Source of the DNA: Haloterrigena gelatinilytica
Lineage (GTDB): Archaea; Halobacteriota; Halobacteria; Halobacteriales; Natrialbaceae
Length of the DNA stretch: 64,000 nucleotides
Direction of reading: 5' to 3'
Assembly: GCF_013342145.1 (NCBI RefSeq)
Contig: NZ_JABUQZ010000001.1
Span: forward strand, 310,001-374,000
Notes under the pieces: generated by a model
The model's input: the letters and a program-made list of their open reading frames with translations, nothing else
Database searches by the model: none
Told to the model about the DNA's origin: nothing
Part shown: positions 4,745 through 17,650 of the stretch, piece by piece
Position numbering within the stretch: the stretch's first letter is position 1
Layout: each line of letters begins with the position of its first letter
Translations under genes and position numbers: made by a program

Positions 4745-5374
4745 TCAGCGCTCGAGGTACGCCATCGCTTCCTCGTCGGTCACCTGGCCGAACCCGCGGT
4801 AGAACTGGCCGACCGCGCGGAACGACTCGGGCGTCTCGAGAGCGATCACCTCGTCGGCTTCGCGCTCGAGGTCGGCGATACCGCGGGGCGAACCGACCGG
4901 GACCGCCAGCGCGACGTACTCGGCGCCGGAATCCTGCACCTGTCGGAGACAGGCCGTCGCGGTCGCGCCGGTCGCGACGCCGTCGTCGACGACGACCGCG
5001 CGCTTCCCCTCGAGGTCGGGCAGTCCCGAACGGTCCGGCGGCCGGTAGCGATCCGCTTTTTCCGCGGCGTTTTCGGCCTCCTCTTCGCGGATCTCTTCGA
5101 GGTAGTCGTCGGAGACGCCGAGTCGCTCGAGGAGGTCGTCGTTGTACCAGACGCTGCCGTCGCTGGCAACCGCGCCGATCGCCAGCTCGGGGTTCCCCGG
5201 CGCGCCCATCTTCCGGGCGACCACCACGTCGAGGTCGGCGTCCAGCGCGTCCGCGACCGGCCGCGCGACCGGCAAGGCGCCGCGAGGAATCCCGAGGACG
5301 ACGTCGGCCTCGAGGCCGCGGGACTCGAGTTCGGCGGCGAGCCGTTCGCCGGCGTCGGTTCTGTCGTCGAACAT
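4745..5374 (-). CDS. Phosphoribosyltransferase family protein
   Basis: A type I phosphoribosyltransferase of 209 residues from the ATG at 5374. The PRPP-binding signature is KRAVVVDDGVATGATATA (hydrophobic stretch, then DDG-x-ATGAT). An N-terminal hood region has PRGALPVARPVADAL and the pyrophosphate loop ARKMGAPGNPELAIGA. This architecture matches stand-alone PRTase-like proteins in archaea and actinobacteria that are annotated only as phosphoribosyltransferase; the nucleobase or other acceptor is unknown. A start seven codons upstream (GTG at 5395) is possible, but MFDDRTDAGERLA is the usual N-terminus of the family. It converges with the TraB-like gene. Confidence 0.85.
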   Translation of the reverse strand: MFDDRTDAGERLAAELESRGLEADVVLGIPRGALPVARPVADALDADLDVVVARKMGAPGNPELAIGAVASDGSVWYNDDLLERLGVSDDYLEEIREEEAENAAEKADRYRPPDRSGLPDLEGKRAVVVDDGVATGATATACLRQVQDSGAEYVALAVPVGSPRGIADLEREADEVIALETPESFRAVGQFYRGFGQVTDEEAMAYLER

Positions 5375-5488
5375 ACGATGCACTACGACGGCCACGTACT
5401 ATGCCTTGGTGTGGCACACGACGGGATCGAACAGTGTCGGAGTCCACACTTCCCTCAACTCGAAGGCGAACCGAAGCGTTCTGCCATC

Positions 5489-5640
5489 GTGGCAACGGGG
5501 ATTGCCACACCCTCCCCAACCGATTTCTGCTCGCGGGCCAACGGCCCGTCTGTTCACGGGCGCGAAGCGCCCGTTCACATGGTATGCGAGACCTTCGGTC
5601 TCGCACTACTCGCATGGTTCGCGGAACCGAAGGTTCCGCG
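5489..5640. repeat. Cluster of tight inverted repeats with mostly 3-base loops
   Basis: This gene-free stretch (5396-5857) holds a tandem series of perfect hairpins. They are: 5489-5508 with arms GTGGCAA/TTGCCAC and a 6-base loop; 5534-5548 with arms CGGGCC/GGCCCG and loop AAC; 5556-5574 with 8-bp arms and loop GAA; 5585-5605 with 9-bp arms and loop TTC; 5620-5640 with 9-bp arms and loop GAA. A weaker 5-bp hairpin follows at 5650-5663. It lies between the divergent starts of the phosphoribosyltransferase and NAD(P)HX dehydratase genes, so it is not a simple terminator. Confidence 0.8.
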
Positions 5641-5857
5641 CTAACGCTCACGCCTGTCGGCGTTCGCTCATCCCTCGTGCGGTATCGTCGATCGGTCCTC
5701 ACCGTCGTTCGGACCGATCGACAGCGCACGCTACCGCCCGGTTTCTCGGTTCGAAGCGCGCCGCTTCCGCTTGCACCGATACGAACCGAACCGAGGGCCG
5801 AAAACGACCGGAACTCGCCTGCCGAACGGCTACCCGTCCCGCTTCTCGAGGTGCGGT

Positions 5858-6631
5858 ATGGGACGACTGCAGCGAACGCTCTCGAACATCTCCGAGGAAG
5901 AGATCGACAACGGCCGGATCGGCATCGTCGCCGGGGCGATCGAGTACCCCAACCAGCCGGCGCTCGTCGGCCGCGCGGCGCTGCGAACCGGCTCCGATCA
6001 CGTCCGGACGTTCGTCCCCGATCCGATCTACGAGATCGTCGCGGGGCAGGATCCGAACCTGCTGGTCGATCGCTACGCGGGCGAACAGTTCGAGGAGAGC
6101 GCGGTCGAACGAACCCGCGAGATGAGCGAGTGGGCCGACGCGCTCGTGATCGGCCCCGGCCTCGTCGACGCCGAACCCGAGGCCGTCTGCGAGGCGATCG
6201 ACACCGTCGACGTCCCGATGGTCGTCGACGCCCTCGCGCTCGAGCCGTCGCTCGATGCCGACCTCTCGAACACGGTGTTGACCCCCAGCGGCGAGGAGGT
6301 CGGACCGATCCGCGACGAGTACGGTTCGCTCGACGAGTTCACGACGGAGACCGGCGCCGTCGTGGCGTTGACCGGCGACGTCGACGAGATCGTGGCCGAC
6401 GGCGAGCGACTCGAAAACGAGACGGGGACGTCCGCGATGACCGTCGCCGGCACCGGCGACACGATGGTCGGCATCATCGCCTCGCTGCTCGGCCAAGGGA
6501 CGGACCGGCGCGAGGCGGCCGAACTGGGCGCGTGGATCCTCGGAAAGTCCGGCGAACTGGCGACGGCCGACCACGGACCGGGCGTCGTCGCGACCGACGT
6601 GATCGAACGCATTCCGGACACGATCCGCTGA
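5858..6631 (+). CDS. NAD(P)HX dehydratase-like (YjeF C-terminal/ribokinase fold) protein
   Basis: A 257-residue protein of the ribokinase-like fold that matches the C-terminal dehydratase half of NnrD/YjeF. Visible are GRIGIVAGAIEYPNQPALVG (substrate/nucleotide loop), ADALVIGPGL, NTVLTPSGEEVG (the LTP motif), VVALTGDVD and the hallmark TVAGTGDTMVGIIASLL with the catalytic aspartate of GxGD. Family members repair hydrated NADH/NADPH using ATP or ADP. The epimerase half found in the bifunctional archaeal protein is absent, and no separate epimerase gene lies nearby. The ATG at 5858 begins MGRLQRTLSNISEEEI; sequence upstream in the same frame belongs to the hairpin region. Confidence 0.82.
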   Translation: MGRLQRTLSNISEEEIDNGRIGIVAGAIEYPNQPALVGRAALRTGSDHVRTFVPDPIYEIVAGQDPNLLVDRYAGEQFEESAVERTREMSEWADALVIGPGLVDAEPEAVCEAIDTVDVPMVVDALALEPSLDADLSNTVLTPSGEEVGPIRDEYGSLDEFTTETGAVVALTGDVDEIVADGERLENETGTSAMTVAGTGDTMVGIIASLLGQGTDRREAAELGAWILGKSGELATADHGPGVVATDVIERIPDTIR

Positions 6632-6730
6632 GGTCGAACTGGCGCCGATCCGCTGCGAACGGAACGCGTTCCCGACCGGCCCCCGCCACGGGAAACCATT
6701 ACCTCTCGCTCCGTCGTCACGTCGAGTGAG

Positions 6731-9907: not shown

Positions 9908-10743
9908 GCGTCGACATCGACCTCGAGGCGGACGGTCGGACGGCGCGACTCGCTGGCGGCGATCCGATCCGACTCGTCCGCGGGACGGTCGGGATCGCCG
10001 CCTTCCTCACCCTCTGGTGGCTCGCCGCGCGGGCGACGACGCCGTCGTATCTCCTCCCGGGCCCGGTCGCGTCGGCGGGCGCGTTCGTCGACCTCTTCGT
10101 CCGGCGGACCGCCGTCGACCTCCCGGTCGCGGGAACCACGGCGGTCCCGGTCGGACTGTACAAACTCGGCCAGAGTCTGTTTCACTACGTTCCCGGTCTG
10201 GTCGTCGGGAACGCCGCCGGAATCGCGGTCGGCGTGGCGATGGGCTGGTCGACTCGCGTCGACGACTACCTCCGGCCGGTCGTCCGACTCCTCCGACCGG
10301 CTCCGCCGCTGGCGTGGGTGGTCTTCGCCATCCTCTGGTTCGGGATCCACCACACCGGCGCGGCGTTTATCGTCTTCATCGGCGCGTTCTGGATCACCCT
10401 CTACGGCGCCTACAGCGGCGTCGAGGGCGTCCCGAGGGAGTACCTCGAGGTCGCGTCCGTGCTCGGCGTCGATTCCGATCGAACGCTGCTCCGAAATCTC
10501 GTTCTCCCGACCGCCGCACCGAGCATTCTCACTGCCGTTCGAACGAGCATCGGTCGGTGCTGGATGATCGTCGTCGGCGCGGAACTGTTCGGCGCGCCCG
10601 GCGTCGGCTACGAGATCATCAACGCCTCGAACAACCTCGCGCTGGACACCAGTATCGCGTACATGTTCCTCATCAGTATCGTTTACGTCGGCATGGACGT
10701 CGCGTTCCGCGCGGTCGAACGGAGGGTTCTCGCGTGGCAGTGA
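9904..10743 (+). CDS. ABC transporter permease (SsuC/TauC-like)
   Basis: A 279-residue inner-membrane permease of the BPD_transp_1 family with about six transmembrane helices. The coupling-loop (EAA) region is EYLEVASVLGVDSDRTLLRNLVLP, and the pattern GVAMGW, then RPAPPLAWVVFAILWFG, is typical of the SsuC/TauC/NrtB group. It starts in the ATGA overlap with the binding protein. The expected third gene, the nucleotide-binding subunit, is missing: the next gene is a halocin-like precursor more than 200 bases away. It must either borrow an ATPase encoded elsewhere or be non-functional. Confidence 0.85.
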   Translation: MSVDIDLEADGRTARLAGGDPIRLVRGTVGIAAFLTLWWLAARATTPSYLLPGPVASAGAFVDLFVRRTAVDLPVAGTTAVPVGLYKLGQSLFHYVPGLVVGNAAGIAVGVAMGWSTRVDDYLRPVVRLLRPAPPLAWVVFAILWFGIHHTGAAFIVFIGAFWITLYGAYSGVEGVPREYLEVASVLGVDSDRTLLRNLVLPTAAPSILTAVRTSIGRCWMIVVGAELFGAPGVGYEIINASNNLALDTSIAYMFLISIVYVGMDVAFRAVERRVLAWQ

Positions 10744-10758
10744 CCCGTTCTGAACGGG
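10744..10758. terminator. Hairpin directly after the permease stop
   Basis: Arms CCCGTT/AACGGG with loop CTG begin on the base after the TGA of the permease gene. It resembles the three-base-loop hairpins elsewhere in this window. No T-run follows, so a termination role is only inferred from position. A frame opening with GTG at 10734 runs through it to 10844 (36 codons) and shows no ATPase motif. Confidence 0.35.
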
Positions 10759-10975
10759 AACTCGTTCGACGAAAACTGTCGGTCCGAGCGTCTCCTGTTC
10801 GGTGGGGCGCTCGTGTTGACCGATCGTCGACGACGAACCGGTAGCTCCGTCGATTCGGAATCGACATCGATACGTCAGGTTCTAATTACGGACAGTACGT
10901 CGCTATGCAATATATTATATTCTATCTCCACCTAGTGTAAAATATGTCTCCATACAGTAATGAGTGAAATACAGT

Positions 10976-11815
10976 ATGGTAGATCAAAAATTCAATGTGG
11001 GTGGAAGAGACATCCTGAGAGGAATCGGCGCGACCGGTAGCATCGGTGCCATCGGAATCGGAACCGTTCAGGCGCGAACCGACGACGAGTCGGTCCCGGA
11101 ACGAGAAGTCGCCGAAATCCTCCGGAAAGCGGTATCCCGTGCCGCCCTCGAGACCGCCGGTCTCGATCAACCCGATCCGACGGAAGCGAGGCGAGTTACC
11201 GTCTCCGGTCCGGGACACGTCACGGAAGAGTGGATCGCCCTTCCGGTTGGCGATGACGAAACGTTTAGCTACAATCCCGAAAAGGAAATCGCCGAGATCG
11301 AGCGTAATTCGAACTCGCTCGTGCGTGCGACGGCTCACGACGGCGACGTGATCGTCGAGGACCTCCTGCTGGGAGAGGCCGTCACCGAGGACGCCATCGA
11401 AACGCTGGAGTCGAGCGACGAGTTCGAGCAGGCGCTCAACAATGCCGGTGTCGTCGAGGTCGAACTCGAGGACGCGGCCGCCAACTTCGATCGCGAATCC
11501 GGGACTACTCGAGCGTTCGTTCCCGTTACGAACGCAGGCGGTTCCGAGTCGACGTTGTTCGTCGAGATCGCTCCGGACGATAGCCTGGAGGCCGTCTACG
11601 GGCTTCCCGCCGACACGAGTGGTGTGGGGCTCGCAGACTCCGACGGGATCGAATGCTGGATCGGCTGCCTCGGGTTCGGTCTCACCTGCGCGAACGTGTG
11701 TACGCCGTGTGCCTCCGTACCGACGGCTCCTACGTGTGCACCGTGTGCCGTCTGCGTCGGTGCTACCGCTGCGGCGGCGTGTGCACGTGAGTGTGACATT
11801 CCCGAGTTCTGGTAG
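10976..11815 (+). CDS. Halocin-C8-like precursor (immunity domain plus Cys-rich peptide)
   Basis: A 279-residue protein with three parts. Residues 1-34 look like a Tat-type secretion signal with a weakened motif (GGRDILRG, then a Gly/Ile-rich hydrophobic core). Residues about 35-220 are an acidic globular domain. Residues 221-279 are a compact tail with ten cysteines (227, 231, 238, 242, 245, 254, 257, 260, 269, 273). This plan and length match the halocin C8 precursor, which is about 283 residues, is cleaved into an N-terminal immunity protein HalI and a C-terminal antimicrobial peptide with ten cysteines. The assignment rests on architecture; sequence identity was not measured. ATG 10976 was preferred over GTG 10964. 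Upstream (10908-10925) is AT-rich, as for a promoter. Confidence 0.72.
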   Translation: MVDQKFNVGGRDILRGIGATGSIGAIGIGTVQARTDDESVPEREVAEILRKAVSRAALETAGLDQPDPTEARRVTVSGPGHVTEEWIALPVGDDETFSYNPEKEIAEIERNSNSLVRATAHDGDVIVEDLLLGEAVTEDAIETLESSDEFEQALNNAGVVEVELEDAAANFDRESGTTRAFVPVTNAGGSESTLFVEIAPDDSLEAVYGLPADTSGVGLADSDGIECWIGCLGFGLTCANVCTPCASVPTAPTCAPCAVCVGATAAAACARECDIPEFW

Positions 11816-12106
11816 CCGGTAGACACCGATCGGAGCAAACCGATCGCGACGGCGCCGGACGCGTGACCACCGTTGAATCAGTGTCGACTCGACTGCGCTA
11901 ACGTGTGTAATCGGGGGCACCCGTCCGGTGCCTCGAGTACCGTCCCCGCTGCGAACCGCACGCTCGCCGCCCCGAGCAAGATGTCTTCGGGAATCGATCG
12001 ACCACCGCAGCGATCGCGGTTCGATCATCGACTCGGCAGCGTCGTTTGTGGGCTCTCCGTCGCCGCTTCGTTCGTATCGCTCGGTACGGATCGAACGCCG
12101 GACACG
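11816..12106. other. Intergenic, with a partial echo of the halocin Cys-rich coding sequence
   Basis: This 291-base gap between convergent genes holds no full ORF with family features. At 11888-11909 there is a 22-base segment that matches 11681-11702 in the halocin tail at 18 positions; both read CANVC in the sense frame. It may be a decayed duplicate of the peptide-coding end. Confidence 0.35.
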
Positions 12107-13735
12107 TCACAGTCGATACGTCCGGAACCGTCGGACCGCAATTCGGAAGGCGATTCTCGAAACGCCGGCAGCGACGAGTACCGTCAGTAGAAGTGAGCCG
12201 AGTCGAACGGCACCCATCGATAGTCCGGTCGCTCCCGCGGCTTCGTACACTGACGGTGCGTTTCCGAGGACCGCCGGTAGGGTAACGAGCGAGACGATTG
12301 CGAAGACGGCACCGAGTCGGACGAACGACACCGATCCCGTTTGCGCGTACACCGGAACGTCAGTGAAGAAAAACGGAACGGGGACGAATTCGTCTCGATC
12401 AGCGTCCATTCCGGTCGCGACACAGACCGCGGCAGTACACGCGCAGACGGCTACGCCGACCAGTACGACTCCGACCGTCTCCGCGATGCCGGCAGCGCTC
12501 GCCAGTCCCAGCGGAAGTACGACCATCGTGACGAGCGGCAGTCCGATTCCGAGCGCGGCCAGAAGCAGACCACCGACGAACTGTCGCCCGTCGACCGTCG
12601 TAAGCAGCAGCGGGAGAGTGCGATACTCGACGCCGATCGGATCGACACTGGGAACGATACCGGCCGCGAGGCCGAGGCACATTCCGATCAGCAACAGCAG
12701 CGGTAGTCCAGCGATACTGAACACCGGAAGCAGGATCACGGCCGCGAACAGGAGGACGTATCCCGTCGATAGAACGCCGCGCGGGACGCGCCGCTCCGTG
12801 AGCCATCGCGCCCGCGCGACCATGAGCGTAGGCCGCGAAACGCGATCGATGAGACACCGTTCCAGTCGCCCCTCAGCGAGCAGTGACTTCGAACCGCAAG
12901 CGGCGGTTTTGTCGACCGGTTCCGTTTCCCATATTCGTCGGGCCAGCGCAGCCGTCTCGCCCGCGAACAGCGGTACCCCGACGAGTACGGTTCCGAGCGC
13001 ACTCAGTCCGTGCCACGGATCGACCGTCGCCAGGTCGTTCGCGCCCAGAAGCGCGAGGTCGACGAACCACGCTACCGGTAGGCCGTCGAGCCACGCGAAC
13101 GGAACGAGGACGGACACCGAGAGCTCTCGAAGAACGAGTACGACGACGAGTAGCGGGATCCACCCGAAGACGACGAGTAGATCCCGATAGCGGCCGCCCT
13201 GAACGAGTCGCCGTCCGACGAGCAGGATGGCGAGCCGCCCTGCGGCGCCGAGCGTGACTGCGAGCGTTACCAGTCCCGTTACCGCAACGACGATCATGAC
13301 GGCTACCGTCGGGGATCGGAGCCCGAGCGCCAGTCCGACTGCGACGCCGATCGTCGGCGCGGCGAGTGCGGCGAACGCTCGAGCAGTGACGAACAGGAGG
13401 AGACCAACAGCGGCGACCCTCGTCGAAACACCGGTGAGGAGAAATTCCGGCTCGAGTCGTTCGAACCGCGTTCGGACCAACACTGCGCTTCGCCAGATCA
13501 CGACACCGAACGCGACGGTGGCGACGACCCACAGGTCGTCGACCCGTGCGACCGCTCCCGAAGCGAGATCGCGCCCGAACGAGTACGCGATCCAGCAGAG
13601 ACCGACAGCGAGAACGGATAACGCGACGTGATACCCGCGTCGTGTGATTTCGGAACTACTGGAGTCGCGGCGGTGGCGCGTCCACTCGATACGAGCGATC
13701 AATCCGCTGTGTCGGAGGCACGTCGGGACGTTCAT
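12107..13735 (-). CDS. Large multi-pass membrane protein, possibly an ABC-2-type export permease
   Basis: A 542-residue protein with roughly 12 predicted transmembrane helices in two halves (about residues 35-225 and 320-540), separated by a soluble segment around 245-315. The middle reads like the haloarchaeal ABC-2 permease pattern: a short charged segment, DRVSRPTLMVARARWLTERRVPRGVL, before a helix block. No nucleotide-binding motif is present and no ATPase gene is next to it. It converges with the halocin-like gene. In known halocin C8 loci, membrane transport genes accompany the precursor, so a role in export or self-protection is plausible but inferred. ATG at 13735 chosen; GTG at 13747 is an alternative. 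Confidence 0.6.
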   Translation of the reverse strand: MNVPTCLRHSGLIARIEWTRHRRDSSSSEITRRGYHVALSVLAVGLCWIAYSFGRDLASGAVARVDDLWVVATVAFGVVIWRSAVLVRTRFERLEPEFLLTGVSTRVAAVGLLLFVTARAFAALAAPTIGVAVGLALGLRSPTVAVMIVVAVTGLVTLAVTLGAAGRLAILLVGRRLVQGGRYRDLLVVFGWIPLLVVVLVLRELSVSVLVPFAWLDGLPVAWFVDLALLGANDLATVDPWHGLSALGTVLVGVPLFAGETAALARRIWETEPVDKTAACGSKSLLAEGRLERCLIDRVSRPTLMVARARWLTERRVPRGVLSTGYVLLFAAVILLPVFSIAGLPLLLLIGMCLGLAAGIVPSVDPIGVEYRTLPLLLTTVDGRQFVGGLLLAALGIGLPLVTMVVLPLGLASAAGIAETVGVVLVGVAVCACTAAVCVATGMDADRDEFVPVPFFFTDVPVYAQTGSVSFVRLGAVFAIVSLVTLPAVLGNAPSVYEAAGATGLSMGAVRLGSLLLTVLVAAGVSRIAFRIAVRRFRTYRL

Positions 13736-13747
13736 CTCGGAAATCAC

Positions 13748-15929: not shown

Positions 15930-17650
15930 GCGGTGGTGAACAGTGTTCCCACTCCAGGACAGCGGACCCAGCAGGGTTCAGTCCGCTAGTCGGGCGGAAT
16001 CAACGCTGAGACGACGATCTCGACGCATTCACCAGCAGTCACCACAGGTGCATAGTCCATCGGTCCATCCACGTCAGCTTTCAGCAGGAAATCGGTGAGC
16101 CGCCATATGTTGTAGAGGAGTACGGCGAACACGAAGTAGAACAACCGCACCCGGTAGTCCTTCGAGGAGGTCTTCGCGAGGAAGTCGTGCTTGATGCTCT
16201 TGTATTCGTTTTCGATCTGCCAGCGGCGGCTGTATCGGCGACAGACTGTCTCTGCCTCCTCCGGTCCGACCCTGAGGTTCGTCGCGAAGACTGCTGTGCC
16301 ATCGCCTTTCGTCGAGGGCACGTACAGGAACCGCATCTGGTGGCTTCCCGCTTCGACGTGGACGGAAGCTGTTTCCACGGCGACCTCCTGTTCGTCCTCG
16401 TCCATCGTCTCGATGACCTCCCGCTCCGTGCTGTTGATTCGCTTCGGGATGAGGTAGTTCACGCCGAGATTCGACAAGGTCTGAAACACGTGCTGTGAGT
16501 CGAATTCGCGGTCGCACAGCACCGTCTCGATTGGGACGTGGTCTTGGGCTCGTTTCACCAGTCGTCGGACGACACGATGGATCTTGTTTGGCGGATTCTT
16601 ATCCCACTCCGAACTCTCCTTGATCGGCTCTACCCCCAAGACCAACGGGATATTCTGCCCGATGATCGACAGCGTCGCGAATTTGAAGGCTCGACAGTCC
16701 TCGTCTTTCGTGCCGCTGACCATCGACATCCCTTCAACGTCGCCGTAGTACGGGATGTTCGTGATGTCGATCGCGGCCGTCACCGGTCGTCGGAACGTTG
16801 CTTCAGACTCGATGACCGAGAGCAGCCGGTCGGTCGCCGCGTCGAATCCCTCTATCAACGTCTCGGGGTCGAACTGTTTGACCGTTCTGAGGTGTGTATC
16901 ACCGTGTGGTCCACTGTCCGGCCCGTGCCGATACTGGAAGCGGTTGGCGCCCTGGGGTGTGCCACAGCCGACCATCCCCATGAACGTCTGTAACTCGAAG
17001 AATTGGGTATCCTCGTAGGTGGCGTTCGCGCCACGACTGGAGTCGAATCCGTCGAAGCCGTGGTCACGAGCCAGCCGGGTCGTCCGCTGGATCTGCTCGG
17101 CAGTGAACTCGAGTGGGATGTCCTCGGCCGGCTCGTCCGGGAACGCACTCGGGTCTCGGTCTTGGGTCACCACCTCGGCTTTCGGTCGGGCTTCGGGTAC
17201 GTTGATGTCACGGTCGTGAATCTCTTTGACGACGTAGTGTGCGGCCGTGGTGACGAACGTCCTGGTGGCGTCGTCGAAGCGGTTGTGCCAGGTCCGCGAG
17301 AGCACCGATTCGCCAGGGATTTTCTCGAGGCCAAACACGCTTGCAAGTTCAGGATACTTGCTGAGCTCGCGATAGCTCTCGCCCGTGAGTTCCCGGTACA
17401 GGAACAATCGCACTATCCCCTCGAAGGAATGAGGGGCTGGATGCCACTCGGGATAGCCGTCATCAAGTGCATCGAACGAGTCCTTCAGCATTCGAAGAGC
17501 GTTACAAAACGATTGCCCGCTTTCGAGCGCCGTCCTGAGTTCCACCCCAACAAGGTACGCTTCAGTCAACAGCCGTCTCTGACCAACCATAATCGTCACC
17601 CAACAAGCCAGTCAGACAAGCGACGTGCTCCACGGTCACTCCGCCACCGC
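15930..17650 (-). mobile_element. IS element with IS4-like DDE transposase, ends tentative
   Basis: A complete transposase gene fills most of this interval. Candidate terminal inverted repeats are GCGGTGGTG at 15930-15938 and CGCCACCGC at 17642-17650 (reverse complement GCGGTGGCG, 8 of 9 matching). Similarity beyond that is weak and no clear target-site duplication was found, so the ends are provisional. A 7-bp hairpin (AGCGGAC/GTCCGCT at 15961-15967 and 15981-15987) overlaps the transposase stop codon. Confidence 0.5.
15986..17590 (-). CDS. IS4-like DDE transposase
   Basis: A 534-residue transposase. The catalytic triad can be placed as D in AAIDITNIPYYG, D in VLCDREFDSQHV and E in WQIENEYKSIKHDF, the last within the Y-x2-R/K-x3-D/E-x6-K style signature of IS4 relatives. 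The C-terminus RVRLFYFVFAVLLYNIW is the usual helical tail. The N-terminal 150 residues contain the helical DNA-binding part. The gene is intact, so the element may be active. ATG 17590 was chosen; GTG 17599 is possible. The exact IS name needs an ISfinder search. Confidence 0.88.
   Translation of the reverse strand: MVGQRRLLTEAYLVGVELRTALESGQSFCNALRMLKDSFDALDDGYPEWHPAPHSFEGIVRLFLYRELTGESYRELSKYPELASVFGLEKIPGESVLSRTWHNRFDDATRTFVTTAAHYVVKEIHDRDINVPEARPKAEVVTQDRDPSAFPDEPAEDIPLEFTAEQIQRTTRLARDHGFDGFDSSRGANATYEDTQFFELQTFMGMVGCGTPQGANRFQYRHGPDSGPHGDTHLRTVKQFDPETLIEGFDAATDRLLSVIESEATFRRPVTAAIDITNIPYYGDVEGMSMVSGTKDEDCRAFKFATLSIIGQNIPLVLGVEPIKESSEWDKNPPNKIHRVVRRLVKRAQDHVPIETVLCDREFDSQHVFQTLSNLGVNYLIPKRINSTEREVIETMDEDEQEVAVETASVHVEAGSHQMRFLYVPSTKGDGTAVFATNLRVGPEEAETVCRRYSRRWQIENEYKSIKHDFLAKTSSKDYRVRLFYFVFAVLLYNIWRLTDFLLKADVDGPMDYAPVVTAGECVEIVVSALIPPD

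Follow-up and report, generated by a model that had tools for sequence, protein, structure and literature searches.

A small haloarchaeal family of candidate bacteriocin-like precursors with a halocin C8-like layout and a conserved permease neighbour

To our knowledge, genes have been assigned to only a few archaeal peptide antibiotics. Halocin C8 has been described as the best characterised archaeal peptide antibiotic; its precursor, ProC8, is a protein of 283 residues that is exported by the Tat pathway and cleaved into HalI and the 76-residue halocin C8 (PMC11509114). Haloarchaeal antagonists that are released by a protease are also known (PMC12893001). Here we analyse a 64,000-nucleotide stretch of Haloterrigena gelatinilytica DNA (the window, meaning the whole of that stretch), in which an open reading frame had been read as a halocin C8-like precursor. 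The frame lies where this original prediction had placed it, and its product is close in size to ProC8 (279 against 283 residues). We propose, with moderate confidence, that it is a member of a small family of haloarchaeal precursors which resemble those of bacteriocins and work in the manner of halocin C8. The features of the locus are as follows:

10976..11815, + strand: precursor gene, 279 aa, from the ATG at 10976 to the stop at 11815; relatives found
10976..11083, + strand: degenerate Tat-type signal (residues 1-36), with GGRDILR replacing the RR motif; from alignment and nucleotide comparison
11093..11368, + strand: leader half 1 (residues 40-131), two helices followed by strands; predicted, AlphaFold2 model
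11369..11611, + strand: leader half 2 (residues 132-212), two helices followed by strands, with the element order of the ProC8 N-domain; predicted, from models
11648..11812, + strand: ten-cysteine tail (residues 225-279), the presumed mature peptide; from cysteine count, alignment and dN/dS
12107..13747, - strand: ABC-2-like multi-spanning permease, 546 aa, the presumed immunity partner; homologues lie beside family genes

An in-frame GTG upstream, at 10964, is a possible alternative start for the precursor gene. All ten cysteines of the protein are confined to its last 53 residues (CWIGCLGFGLTCANVCTPCASVPTAPTCAPCAVCVGATAAAACARECDIPEFW), which confirms the predicted count of exactly ten in the tail, and the string TPCASVPTAPTCAPC quoted with that prediction is found in the protein. 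The tail is rich in Pro, Thr and Ala, unlike halocin C8, as had been foreseen, and it is also shorter (about 53 against 74-76 residues). The proposed three-part layout of export signal, immunity-like middle and tail holds overall, but the twin arginine is missing from the signal, and the middle is not a halocin C8 immunity domain by sequence: a Pfam search of the precursor gave no match at E<=1, PF22862 (Hac8_like_N) included.

An NCBIfam search of the precursor at E<=1 likewise gave no halocin match, missing TIGR04449 (cut-off 24 bits), and the window locus gives no match in a whole-genome search with TIGR04449, whose cut-off is exceeded by a further two loci in this genome, at 60 and 46 bits. 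The better-scoring of these two matches TIGR04449 at E 3e-15 and PF22862 at E 2e-41. The genuine TIGR04449 precursors of this genome lie at C1:3540097-3540306 (L018/L034) and C1:3967819-3968031 (L019/L035), and the tail at the former is closely similar to halocin C8. The cysteines of the window precursor are spaced 3,6,3,2,8,2,2,8,3, as against 2,7,3,7,13,7,8,8,5 in the HalC8 of the better-scoring locus (counted by hand), and a profile-profile comparison of the tail with halocin C8 gave a probability of about 1%, which establishes no homology. When the second half of the leader was compared with the HalC8 N-domain by hhalign, the score of 17.3 beat 100 of 100 column shuffles; because other real families used as decoys score equally high (up to 17.4), it was rejected as proof, and leader homology to the HalC8 N-domain is unproven. 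As judged from these comparisons, the window precursor falls outside the defined halocin C8 family, and sequence comparison leaves its homology to halocin C8 unproven. A lack of similarity of either domain in profile searches was what the original prediction had said would count against it, and at the sequence level no such similarity was found; the gene neighbourhood nevertheless speaks for a precursor of the bacteriocin type. The layout, the size, the number of cysteines, the shared permease and regulator context and the predicted topology of the leader support the proposed microhalocin-like variant; membership of the halocin C8 family is not supported.

Among 392 haloarchaeal genomes, nine carry ten near-full-length genes of the precursor family (two of them in G327), and damaged copies comprise one interrupted gene (G154) and two tail remnants (G184 and G189); TIGR04449 is present in 53 of the same genomes. 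The distribution of the family is patchy, and the nearest named relative of the window precursor is from Haloterrigena salina (95%). Every one of the ten cysteines is kept in each of the ten aligned family sequences, at identities down to about 26%. In comparison with Natrinema altunense, dN/dS is 0.08 for the tail, below that of the leader (0.36) and of the signal (0.55), which identifies the tail as the constrained part. This value and the invariance across all ten relatives together indicate that the ten-cysteine pattern is not due to chance. Two sub-types are told apart by a C2-C3 spacing of 6 or 11, and the PTxPTCAPCAVC segment flagged earlier is typical of the sub-type with a spacing of 6.

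Most matches of the full-length family profile that are confined to the N terminus appear to reflect the Tat signal, and none of those tested was retained after signal removal at the strict database size. Proteins found via N-terminal similarity alone (L050, L052, L053, L060 and L065) have Tat-like starts and 8-12 cysteines near the C terminus. They resemble the precursor family in these two respects, but similarity in leader or tail is undetectable once the signal is removed; they possibly represent a larger pool of antimicrobial precursors. We further note a 321-residue protein at L032:12294-13259 (minus strand), about 3.4 kb from a family member, which has a Tat-like start, a ten-cysteine tail and no convincing family match, and which is a candidate for another precursor.

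The permease gene lies 291 bp downstream of the precursor gene and is convergent with it. A Pfam search of its 546-residue product gave no match, and its name comes not from a family model but from ATPases in the neighbourhood and from the large number of membrane spans. A homologue lies within 3 kb of eight of the ten near-full-length precursor genes, and the three degraded copies each have one within the same distance; the exceptions are G110 and G007, and in the latter a near-full-length precursor stands without a permease in its vicinity. Since about one to three such permeases were reported per genome of about 4 Mb (at most three candidates being scored in each), this proximity is unlikely to have arisen by chance, with the reservation that the relatedness of the loci keeps them from being independent observations. 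An ABC ATPase adjoins six loci (five near-full-length and one remnant), the nearest models being of the DrrA and lantibiotic-protection types with scores below their curated cut-offs. A FilR1-type regulator, composed of HVO_A0261_N and FilR1_middle domains in the two examples scanned, lies near seven of the ten precursor genes. Across 7 loci, no significant correlation was seen between the identities of the precursors and those of the permeases (Mantel p 0.11). Nothing matched in searches of PADLOC, PHROGs, plasmids, phages and viral contigs. Near the locus, the window contains a transposase-like open reading frame (15986-17599, minus strand) that by eye belongs to the same family as the L032 frames at 5030-6655 and 10205-11827.

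The same types of neighbour are found beside halocin C8 genes. Of twenty halocin C8-type loci, some of which are close relatives, eight have a clear permease match nearby and one a weak match, and a regulator homologue, in several cases a weak match, lies near twelve; both neighbours are present at the halC8 locus in the window's own genome (L034). The precursor family and the halocin C8 family have a common genetic module, and a conserved cluster around halC8 may already have been published. At L117:7896-12185, two such permeases flank an ABC ATPase, and a FilR1-type regulator homologue and a halocin C8-like precursor with 12 cysteines lie further downstream.

The damaged copies bear on the role of the permease. 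G154 has an interrupted precursor beside a permease that reads through intact; in G184 and G189 the precursor is reduced to a tail remnant, again beside an intact permease. This combination in three genomes, two of the cases coming from one genus, suggests that the transporter is the immunity component and is kept after loss of the toxin.

In the AlphaFold2 model of the window precursor (pLDDT 69), the leader consists of two successive helix-helix-strands units, and in that of the ProC8 of the same genome (pLDDT 67) it runs strand-helix-helix-five strands. The alignments given to AlphaFold2 for both models included proteins from loci found in the genome searches. Compared by element order in models of modest quality, the leader is predicted to match that of ProC8, doubled. 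The internal repeat seen by sequence is limited to a single 24-column local match, so the doubling rests on the model. Foldseek searches with the predicted models gave no match at E<=0.001, and no solved fold clearly matches the predicted structures. VIA-align matches with Z 5-6.5 (NTF2-, cystatin-, PepSY- and BLIP-like) fall below the stated noise level and were discarded, and the one match from a PDB sequence search (E 0.36) was disregarded.

The likeness in size, cysteine number and Tat-like start, the permease superfamily and regulator type held in common and the similar predicted order of leader elements could also mean that the precursor is a genuine halocin C8 family member whose leader and tail have both diverged. 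We consider this unlikely, as neither TIGR04449 nor PF22862 gives a match at E<=1, the cysteine spacings differ, no tail homology emerges from profile-profile comparison and the hhalign scores are not above those of decoys. A different possibility is that the product is a secreted cysteine-rich signal or other non-toxic peptide, which the FilR1-type regulator would sense or the ABC transporter would handle. Conservation of regulator and transporter near the precursor would agree with such a role, and one halocin is reported to promote DNA uptake, going by the title of a paper cited in PMC10105419. The patchy distribution, the halocin C8-like layout and the intact permeases beside broken precursors fit a toxin with its immunity better, and a non-toxic peptide is in our judgement similarly improbable.

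A separate question is the state of the window copy itself. Its signal reads VGGRDILR, where the Natrinema altunense counterpart has SKRRDILK; the twin arginine, kept in nearly all relatives (e.g. NRRKLLK and KRRDILK), is GR in the window precursor, and the export signal there is therefore degenerate. Neither an ATPase nor a FilR1-type regulator was found beside the window precursor, and the genome holds no close copy of the regulator (best 28% identity). Compared with H. salina, dN/dS is raised in the precursor (0.41) and the permease (0.84), with 0.03-0.32 in four other genes (small counts), and the H. salina counterpart itself has, as assembled, a one-base shift at the start-codon region and RK in place of RR. 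The window locus is thus reduced, with no adjacent ATPase or regulator, the twin arginine lost and both dN/dS values raised; the precursor locus may be decaying in Haloterrigena, and the window copy may no longer make an active peptide. The broken copies in three other genomes also agree with the view that the window gene, irrespective of the function of the family, is an inactive remnant, but its open reading frame is intact, all ten cysteines are retained and the precursor dN/dS of 0.41 is still below 1. We regard this as a serious possibility, short of an even chance, and it is compatible with our preferred reading of the family as bacteriocin-like precursors.

Under that preferred reading, a Tat-type signal would export the folded precursor, and an extracellular protease would free the ten-cysteine tail, presumably stabilised by disulfides, as the active, putatively toxic peptide. 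The leader, with its two predicted units of helix-loop-helix and beta-sheet, would shield or neutralise the peptide. Protection of the producer would fall to the ABC-2 permease next to the precursor gene, working with an ABC ATPase whose gene lies either close by or at another locus. A bolder version, which we put forward as tentative and rather doubtful, is that the family constitutes a second class of ten-cysteine halocins, with peptide and leader sequences independent of halocin C8, two tandem helix-loop-helix neutralising units and immunity through a dedicated ABC-2 transporter. On this version, halocin C8, whose loci carry the same transporter superfamily, would also have a second immunity based on a transporter. 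The family may already be described in the Makarova 2019 survey of archaeal antimicrobial peptides. A separate family that follows the scheme of halocin C8 and has a transporter conserved beside it provides concrete new candidates, and makes transporter-based immunity to archaeal bacteriocins, beyond the single-gene HalI model, directly testable.

Among described systems, the family is most readily compared with halocin C8 and with HFX_0892. Like ProC8, its members are precursors of about 280 residues with a Tat-type start, a leader and a C-terminal tail of ten cysteines, and, like halocin C8 loci, their loci have the same permease superfamily and regulator type close by. They differ from halocin C8 in that the leader unit appears doubled and in that an ABC ATPase more often adjoins the precursor gene. 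HFX_0892, which is activated by halolysin, is likewise a secreted haloarchaeal precursor, and the activation by an extracellular protease that we propose would be as in HFX_0892; its active part, however, is the N-terminal region, unlike the presumed active C-terminal tail of the precursor family (PMC12893001).
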